From Stygiolobus caldivivus (GTDB taxonomy: Archaea; Thermoproteota; Thermoprotei_A; Sulfolobales; Sulfolobaceae): DNA of 64,000 bases. A model generated the notes under the pieces. The model was given only the letters and a program-made list of their open reading frames with translations. It did not search any database and was not told the origin of the DNA. The DNA is taken from NCBI RefSeq assembly GCF_019704315.1, contig NZ_AP024597.1, positions 682,001-746,000 on the forward strand. Direction: 5' to 3'. A program made the position numbers and the translations under genes. Positions within the stretch are counted from its first letter, which is position 1. The number at the start of each line of letters is the position of its first letter. Positions 57,517 to 60,726 of this stretch are shown here, in pieces.

Positions 57517-58314
57517 TTAAAAATTTATGAATCTAACTTCTTCTCTGCTAGATTTAGCTAATTGTTCTTCCTCGTTTACTATTTTAGTCCAAAACTTCTC
57601 AGCATTTATTAACATATAAGTGTATACTTCACCAATCCTTTTCATAGTATCCTCTTCGCTTAAGGGGTGTATCCTTAGACCTACCCTTCCTACTGTCCCT
57701 CCTCTGACCATTAACCAATGTGCGAATACCTCAACAGGATATTTAGTAGTAATTTCTTCATTTGTTAATTTCTTTCTGTATAGGTAGAATAATTCACGAA
57801 TAAAATTTGCGGAAATAACCCTGAAGAATTGCTCTTTCCATTTCTCTAGGTAATCTTCTCCTTCCTTTATCATAATATTTCTCAAGTAATTATACATGTC
57901 TGAGGCTGTTTTATCATCAGTTAGTGATAAACCTGTAACAGCATAAACGAAGTCTTTCTGCGCCATAAAGGCGTCGAAATCTCTATTTACAAAGAGCCAT
58001 GCAGTAGCTGCAAAGGAATTTACAATTCCGTTCATCAGTTTATCTACTAGTTTCTCTTTATCGACATTTTCTGAGACCATTTTACCCTCTCTTATAATGT
58101 TAGCCAGTTCTTCGAAGTCAACGACACCAGCATATATTAGTTTCCCGTCGATAAACACGGAAGGAGTAGATATTACACCTCTTTCTAGTGCTATAAACGG
58201 ATATAGTTGGGTATCAATAATTATTACCTTACTTAGTAGCCCTTCCTTTTCTAAGAATTCAATAAGGAGGTTACATTCTGTACAAGTCTTGTGGGTAAAG
58301 ATCTCTACTCTCAT
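57517..58314 (-). CDS. Thioredoxin/glutaredoxin-like protein with a helical C-terminal domain
   Basis: 265 aa. Residues 1-75 are a small thioredoxin fold with 'CTEC' at 11-14 and the cis-Pro in 'ISTPSVFIDGKLI'. Residues 85-265 are helical and of unknown fold ('AATAWLFVNRDFDAFMAQKDFVYAVTG', 'FAHWLMVRGGTVGRVGLRIHPL'). It starts 4 nt into the XPD stop region (ATGA-like overlap) and precedes the TusA-like gene, suggesting a small thiol or sulfur-transfer set. Confidence 0.75.
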   Translation of the reverse strand: MRVEIFTHKTCTECNLLIEFLEKEGLLSKVIIIDTQLYPFIALERGVISTPSVFIDGKLIYAGVVDFEELANIIREGKMVSENVDKEKLVDKLMNGIVNSFAATAWLFVNRDFDAFMAQKDFVYAVTGLSLTDDKTASDMYNYLRNIMIKEGEDYLEKWKEQFFRVISANFIRELFYLYRKKLTNEEITTKYPVEVFAHWLMVRGGTVGRVGLRIHPLSEEDTMKRIGEVYTYMLINAEKFWTKIVNEEEQLAKSSREEVRFINF

Positions 58315-59981
58315 AGCTTAGTCTTTTTCGGATTAAAGCAATTTAGGTTTTTCTTCCACCATAAGTTATCAAACCGCTTATCTAAAAGCCAGACTTGTAC
58401 GCGGTCATCAGGTCCCCTTATTCCCCTCCCGACGGATTGCCTGATGGTCATTAAAGCGGGTATTTTATAGAGGTACTCTTCTACTTTCTTACCAAGCCTT
58501 TCCGAGGCCTTCTGGGCCCTTAACTTAGTGTAATCATCTGGCGGTGGATAAGGTATTCCGACGATTACTACGTCGCTAATTAAGCTCTTTCCGTCTCTAA
58601 CGAGTTCTACACCTTCACTCAATTTTCCCTTCCCTACTGCACCTATAATTACCTTGTCAAACTTATCTATTAGAGAGTAAAGTTCTTCTATGGAAGTATC
58701 CTCATCTTCTAAATACTTAGGGACCTCTACGTAACCCATGACTTTCCTCATTATTTCGTATGAGGGGAAAACCGAAAATACGTGAGATTTAGCTTGATAA
58801 TAGACTTTTAGCAGGTAATCCGCATACCTTTTCCACATCGTGTCCCCTCTATTATCAAATTTAGTGGTAACGTCTATGGCTAAAATACATTCGTAAGTCC
58901 CGGAGACCTTACCTTTTACCTCTTTTTCCACTTCGATGTATTCAAATTTTCTTGTTATATTCCATACGTGTCTTATGTAATCTTCTGGTGGTAACGTACC
59001 TGACATGAGGATAAAAGACAGGTCTTTATTATTTAATATGTCTAGGTACTTTGAAATATCAGGGCTCTTTAATATTACCTTGTTTTTATGTATAAAAGGT
59101 ACTAAGTCCCTATCCCTGTTCAGACTTTCATAGAACCTTATTATCGGGCCTAAATATATCCTCTTTATCGCTTTTTCTCTTATCATTTTGTCTCTAAGTT
59201 CATCGTATTCTTCCTCAAGTACTTTTAGTTCGTCATTAGAGACTAGCGGTACTTCTTTAGCTTTCACATAGCCTTCTACGTCACTTGTGATCCTAGTTAG
59301 CTCTTCTTTTACTCTCTGGAGTATAAATTTTACAAAATCGTCTCCGACTTGTTTTAACGCCATGTCGATAGTAAAAACAGATAACACTTTCTCTTCTAAC
59401 TCTCCTACGTTTTCTATGTTGTGAGCCTCATCGACAACTATAAGATAATCCTCATAATTAATCCCTAAAGCCTCCCTAAAACGTTCTATGAAAAAATAGG
59501 GATAAGTCAGGGCTATTACGTCAGCTTTATTTAGGTCGTTGAATAGGGAGAAATAAGGGCAAAAACCTTCTGCAATTCCTTTTTCTTTAAGTTTTTTCAA
59601 GTAGTTACTTGGATAATCGTCTACATTTAAGTCTATTATAGAGTTCCTAAACTCGCATTGATTAGAATTTATATCGTCAGTGTTTGCATCTTCATTCGAA
59701 AATAAACACGCGTTAGGTTTTCCTACCAAGAACGAAAACTTAAGGTCGCCTTCACTTATCTTGATAAAATCCCTAAAGACCGGTGCATATTCATTGTGGG
59801 TCCTGACTAAAAATATTACTTTACCTTTAGTTTCTAACCCAACTAAAAGAGAAAATATTGTCTTTCCACTACCGGTTGGTGCATTTAAAAATACTAATTC
59901 ATTACTACTTATAAGTTCCTCTACTTTTTTCTTTAACTTTTTTTGCCACTCCCTAAGTTTCAGGTCAGAAAAACTCTTCAA
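58311..59981 (-). CDS. xpd: XPD/Rad3-type DNA helicase with an altered Fe-S site
   Basis: 556 aa, the length of Sulfolobus XPD, a 5'-3' helicase. Walker A 'APTGSGKT' (34-41), DEAH (184-187), 'LMSGTLPP', and 'QSVGRGIRG' near the end. The Fe-S domain keeps Cys92, Cys109 and Cys141 with the exact spacing of Sulfolobus XPD (13, 2 and 31 residues between), but position 106 is Ser (codon TCT at 59664-59666) where the second Cys should be. Its start lies inside the preceding small gene (17-base overlap). Confidence 0.93.
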   Translation of the reverse strand: MKSFSDLKLREWQKKLKKKVEELISSNELVFLNAPTGSGKTIFSLLVGLETKGKVIFLVRTHNEYAPVFRDFIKISEGDLKFSFLVGKPNACLFSNEDANTDDINSNQCEFRNSIIDLNVDDYPSNYLKKLKEKGIAEGFCPYFSLFNDLNKADVIALTYPYFFIERFREALGINYEDYLIVVDEAHNIENVGELEEKVLSVFTIDMALKQVGDDFVKFILQRVKEELTRITSDVEGYVKAKEVPLVSNDELKVLEEEYDELRDKMIREKAIKRIYLGPIIRFYESLNRDRDLVPFIHKNKVILKSPDISKYLDILNNKDLSFILMSGTLPPEDYIRHVWNITRKFEYIEVEKEVKGKVSGTYECILAIDVTTKFDNRGDTMWKRYADYLLKVYYQAKSHVFSVFPSYEIMRKVMGYVEVPKYLEDEDTSIEELYSLIDKFDKVIIGAVGKGKLSEGVELVRDGKSLISDVVIVGIPYPPPDDYTKLRAQKASERLGKKVEEYLYKIPALMTIRQSVGRGIRGPDDRVQVWLLDKRFDNLWWKKNLNCFNPKKTKL

Positions 59982-60258
59982 TTTTAGCTAATATTTCCTC
60001 TAACATTATATATTTAACGTAATCTTTTTCAGCTAGTGATAATATGTCCTTTACTTTCCCTTTTACTTTTATAGTAGATAAGAACGGAAATACTGCTACA
60101 ACGTGACCTACTTTTTTCACATCTTCAACTACATCTGAAGAAGGCTGCTTAGAGGTAATTATTATTGCTTGGACTTCTGCAGATGAGGAAATATTGTTTA
60201 TTTCTATTAACCTGTAGTCGATCTTATTGGCAAGCTTCTCCTCTATTGTTGTATTCAT
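59965..60258 (-). CDS. Small protein coupled to XPD, unknown
   Basis: 97 aa. 'EVQAIIITSKQPSSDVVEDVKKVGHVVAVFPFLSTIKVKGKVKDILSLAEKDYVKYIMLEE' has a beta-alpha-beta-beta-alpha-beta order like ferredoxin-type small domains (for instance peptidase-inhibitor I9/propeptide folds). A GAGGTG Shine-Dalgarno-like site is six bases before the ATG and a TATA (gctatataac) lies at about 60283. It overlaps xpd by 17 nt, so it may help XPD; that is inference. Confidence 0.7.
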   Translation of the reverse strand: MNTTIEEKLANKIDYRLIEINNISSSAEVQAIIITSKQPSSDVVEDVKKVGHVVAVFPFLSTIKVKGKVKDILSLAEKDYVKYIMLEEILAKIEEFF

Positions 60259-60417
60259 TATTTACACCTCTTCACTAATAGTTATATAGCGTTTTAACAT
60301 TATAAACTAATCGCATATAAAACATGACAAACCCTATAAAAATATCATCTATTATGGAGGGGATAATAAGAGCTTACGTATGATTAGCATTAAATCTTAT
60401 AAATTCAATTGTGCAAT

Positions 60418-60726
60418 ATGCCACGCCTTACAAAAAGCGATTTTAAGCCCGGAGAAAGGAGGAAAATAAAAGTTGACGATAAGGAAATTTTAGTAGTTTA
60501 TTTAGGTGCAGACCGATTTTATGCTTTTGAGAATAAGTGTCCACATTTAGGGTGTGATTTAAGTAAGGTGGCAGTCGTAATTAGGGAAGAGTTAGTATGT
60601 CAATGTCATTTCACTCACTTTTCTCTCAAGGACGGAAAGGCCATAAAGGGAGCTACTAAAAAACCTCTAAAAGTCTATAGCGTAAAAGTAGAAGGAGAAG
60701 AAGTGGTCATTGACGAGAGCCAATGA
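60418..60726 (+). CDS. Rieske-type [2Fe-2S] ferredoxin
   Basis: 102 aa from the ATG (a TTG nine bases earlier is possible). 'KCPHLGCDL' gives Cys-x-His and 'CQCHFTHFS' the second Cys-x-x-His, the two Rieske ligand pairs. No membrane anchor, so a soluble electron carrier or oxygenase-type ferredoxin. TATA near 60388-60399 gives a leaderless start. It overlaps aroD by 20 nt on the opposite strand. Confidence 0.9.
   Translation: MPRLTKSDFKPGERRKIKVDDKEILVVYLGADRFYAFENKCPHLGCDLSKVAVVIREELVCQCHFTHFSLKDGKAIKGATKKPLKVYSVKVEGEEVVIDESQ

Follow-up and report, generated by a model that had tools for sequence, protein, structure and literature searches.

The Fe-S cluster of XPD/Rad3 helicases is held by four cysteines. 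A 64,000-nucleotide stretch of the Stygiolobus caldivivus genome (contig NZ_AP024597.1, positions 682,001 to 746,000; hereafter the window) encodes a member of this family in which one of the four is a serine. This raises the questions of whether the protein is still an XPD, whether the unusual codon is real, and what cluster and activity such a protein would have.

The gene occupies positions 58311..59981 on the minus strand and forms a single, intact open frame of 556 residues, whose TTG start overlaps the 3' end of the upstream gene. The product matches the Pfam families DEAD_2 (59 bits) and Helicase_C_2 (80 bits), both above the cut-offs, and contains a Walker A motif (GSGKT), a DEAH box and a C-terminal helicase domain, with the motifs invariant in the family alignment. 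The closest solved structure is that of Sulfolobus acidocaldarius XPD (SaXPD; PDB 3crv; 670 bits), an ortholog in domain architecture with 53% identity. An AlphaFold model, computed for the window protein together with five relatives and representing the polypeptide without its cluster, has a mean pLDDT of 88.5 and superimposes on 3crv with a TM score of 0.94. As modelled, the protein has the XPD fold, with the Fe-S and Arch insertions in helicase domain 1. These matches bear out the preliminary description, which had named the protein as XPD from the sequence. The window protein remains XPD by descent and fold; lacking one ligand, it is a variant within the family rather than an outsider. Moreover, neither a protein search nor a PF06733 search found a second DEAD_2-family gene in the same genome, and we therefore reject the possibility that a second XPD has taken over the function.

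Three of the four ligands are cysteines: Cys92 (first ligand, 59706..59708), Cys109 (third ligand, codon TGC, 59655..59657) and Cys141 (fourth ligand, 59559..59561), all on the minus strand. The second is Ser106, encoded by TCT at 59664..59666 on the minus strand (AGA on the plus strand), and the spacing reads C-x13-S-x2-C-x31-C, which apart from the serine is that of SaXPD. Residues, spacing and codon, read directly from the sequence, are as first described. The HMMER alignment to 3crv places IN-S-NQ-C of the window protein against IP-C102-KY-C105 of SaXPD; because this alignment is gap-free, Ser106 stands at the position of the second ligand, Cys102, as had been proposed, and an alignment slip is rejected as its source. 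A nearby substitute ligand is not evident, the other cysteines of the protein being distant in sequence, in helicase domain 2 and at the C-terminus.

The serine is very rare. The second ligand is cysteine in all 29 other full-length Sulfolobaceae XPDs and serine in the window protein only (30 loci); with the split XPD of the Sulfolobaceae genome G119, which also has the cysteine, the alignment check suggested in the preliminary description yields cysteine in 30/30 other Sulfolobaceae XPDs. At one locus (L030), the motif INCKFC was masked by a gap in the pairwise comparison, which the multiple alignment resolved. Across 133 XPD-family segments, a partly redundant set that is mostly from Thermoproteota but also takes in paralogs of the plasmid type and a small number of sequences from bacteria and other archaea, and leaving out nine loci in which the motifs were not found, the four ligand columns are cysteine in 133, 132, 133 and 133 segments, respectively; the sole exception is the window protein. 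Its nearest counterpart, the XPD of Stygiolobus azoricus DSM 6296, shares 72% identity and the same gene neighbours, but has cysteine at this position, encoded by TGT, which is one G-to-C transversion away from TCT. This congener comparison rests on one species, the genus being represented by two genomes. A search of genome contigs found no near relative or second strain of S. caldivivus, and viral contigs searched with the window XPD returned distant helicases only. The preliminary description had weighed a lineage-specific altered cluster against a one-base error or mutation. That remains the right frame, but "lineage-specific" reaches one genome only, because the sole congener compared has the cysteine.

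Laboratory mutants that carry the same Cys-to-Ser change at the same ligand bear on what its loss would mean. According to the passages of PMC2435149 that deal with these mutants (citing Rudolf 2006 and Pugh 2008), helicase activity is unaffected in SaXPD C102S and in Ferroplasma acidarmanus Cys105Ser, whereas a Cys-to-Ser change at any of the other three ligands abolishes it. The preliminary description held that archaeal XPDs mutated at a cysteine lose their helicase activity; for this residue, that is wrong. In the same passages, SaXPD Cys102 and F. acidarmanus Cys105 correspond to Cys113 of Thermoplasma acidophilum XPD, which lies within a helix, and Pugh et al. are said to have suggested that the protein, once purified aerobically, carries a degraded yet functional 3Fe-4S cluster, 4Fe-4S being the form presumed in vivo. 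A table in PMC5869190 lists C102S among the mutants that Fan et al. made in 2008 as well. Those proteins were engineered, whereas the window XPD carries the serine naturally, in an otherwise wild-type background, and so reproduces in nature the published C102S change.

We consider it probable that the substitution is genuine and tolerated and gives a three-Cys-ligated cluster, and this is the most likely reading of the locus. An ordinary Sulfolobaceae XPD would have exchanged its second ligand for serine through a single G-to-C change, and the ligand affected would be the only one of the four that tolerates replacement. In this reading Cys92, Cys109 and Cys141 would hold the cluster, and the second-ligand site may be vacant, giving [3Fe-4S], or weakly filled by Ser106 or solvent, giving [4Fe-4S]. 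Folding and the unwinding of DNA in the 5' to 3' direction are most likely retained; we infer this activity by analogy with SaXPD C102S, as reported in the passages of PMC2435149 cited above, and the cluster type and the function in S. caldivivus are inferred likewise. Counting against a tolerated variant, the second-ligand cysteine is otherwise invariant (132/133), and serine at this position is known from one genome only; the mutant data, moreover, come from a paper that cites the original work. Since the cysteine is nearly invariant, selection must normally keep the second ligand, despite the activity of the mutant in vitro. This near-perfect conservation implies some cost of its loss in vivo, a cost that may be small in these archaea. 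A stronger form of the same reading, in which the protein is a naturally fixed XPD that works in vivo with a permanent three-cysteine cluster ([3Fe-4S] or Ser/solvent-ligated [4Fe-4S]) and the fourth ligand is dispensable for its cellular role, is one that we put forward tentatively, as a possibility somewhat short of even.

The state of the rest of the gene bears on whether the change is an isolated event. The other 29 family XPDs share 81 invariant columns; the window protein agrees with them at 80 and departs only at the second-ligand cysteine. With SaXPD as outgroup, Tajima-type counts give 38 unique changes in the window protein and 38 in S. azoricus XPD; with two Sulfurisphaera outgroups, the window branch is slightly longer, but not significantly (chi-square 2.4 and 3.4). 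The dN is 0.186, with synonymous sites saturated. Judged from these substitution patterns, the window gene is under purifying selection. A pseudogene or decaying gene is rejected, given the open frame, the single broken column among 81 and a relative rate equal to that of the congener.

A milder form of decay deserves more weight. The base may be real, but XPD may add so little to fitness in these archaea that a slightly deleterious loss of the ligand was carried in by drift, perhaps as the beginning of gene loss. Relaxed selection of this kind is the main biological rival, because xpd deletion had no observed phenotype in Saccharolobus islandicus and caused only marginal sensitivity in Thermococcus kodakarensis (PMC4471258); the xpd gene of genome G119, split into two frames, points in the same direction. 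However, the intact invariant columns, the unaccelerated branch and a dN far below dS all speak against it, and the sole lesion falls on the ligand that is known to tolerate serine. We regard relaxed selection as unlikely.

Where the change fell is informative as well. A random missense change at the 81 invariant columns would be Cys-to-Ser at the second ligand in 2/537 cases, and one that strikes a ligand cysteine would be so in 2/28. That the lone broken site is a tolerated ligand with a tolerated replacement mildly favours a real, tolerated variant over error or decay, although the argument is made after the fact, the site having been chosen for its oddity.

Another explanation is that the deposited genome contains a one-base consensus error and the organism has TGT, that is, cysteine. 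Picking oddities enriches for errors, and here one codon of one genome deviates at an otherwise invariant site where the congener has TGT. On the other hand, a random hit on the ligands would seldom be exactly this exchange, and the genome is one contig with a completeness of 99.99%. A 15-kb block in common with S. azoricus (window ~49.1-64.0 kb) is free of frame breaks, although this informs on indels more than on substitutions. Isolated G-to-C substitutions are an uncommon type of error in polished assemblies. A sequence error is, in our judgement, distinctly improbable.

Finally, Ser106 could have been selected for an altered redox potential or labile iron that tunes DNA-mediated redox signalling or oxygen sensing in this lineage. 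Nothing beyond the substitution itself favours such adaptive remodelling; redox roles have been proposed for XPD/DinG clusters (PMC9826845, PMC4824113). The change is confined to a single genome, and the Fe-S domain has no excess of changes over the congener: with SaXPD as outgroup, residues 85-150 hold 5 unique changes in the window protein and 6 in S. azoricus. We consider this explanation very improbable.

Although the XPD cluster has been described as essential for helicase activity, the loss of one of its four ligands is tolerated in vitro; in natural sequences, that ligand is hardly ever missing. If the base is confirmed, this natural exception would make the discrepancy accessible in a native protein: one could ask whether [4Fe-4S] is required rather than [3Fe-4S], and what purpose the fourth cysteine serves. 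If the protein also works in vivo with a permanent three-cysteine cluster, its redox centre, altered by nature, could serve to test models of DNA charge transport. If the base is a sequence error, the case matters only as a correction. The locus is therefore a modest natural experiment on the need for a fourth ligand and not a new system.

The genes around xpd are largely shared with S. azoricus. The upstream gene that overlaps the xpd start (59965..60258, minus strand) encodes 97 residues that match neither Pfam nor NCBIfam; it adjoins xpd in S. azoricus too, with 88% identity. The downstream gene (57517..58314, minus strand) overlaps the xpd stop and has a thioredoxin/glutaredoxin-like N-terminal domain, while its remaining ~180 residues match no Pfam or NCBIfam family; its S. 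azoricus counterpart (84% identity) also lies beside xpd. Divergent from this cluster is a Rieske-type ferredoxin-like gene (60409-60726, plus strand), kept in S. azoricus with 75% identity.

Several other XPD and XPB loci were encountered. The chromosomal XPD of G119 (L135 nt 362-2007, G119:C1) consists of two overlapping frames of 325 and 251 residues, broken just after motif III, and keeps its Fe-S cysteines; the split reflects either an indel introduced during assembly or a frameshift present in the organism. In S. azoricus, an XPB-like match (L279, G108:C1:979729-980139) has one TAG and two TAA codons in the matched frame, whereas the corresponding frame of the window genome is open; the S. 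azoricus match is possibly a decayed second XPB or only reads past the gene end. The structure PDB 2vl7 ("Xpd4") corresponds to the second XPD paralog encoded in the Sulfurisphaera tokodaii genome (L106, G078:C1:1313743-1315302) and not the SaXPD ortholog. Xpd4 and its plasmid-borne relatives have the XPD fold and four cysteines, but form a separate paralog type with about 30% identity; contig L113 also carries one. The best plasmid matches to the window XPD are on the Sulfolobus plasmids NOB8H2 and S. shibatae (NC_006493.1, NZ_CP077716.1), and the occurrence of relatives on Sulfolobus plasmids suggests a mobile origin of the Xpd4-type paralog.
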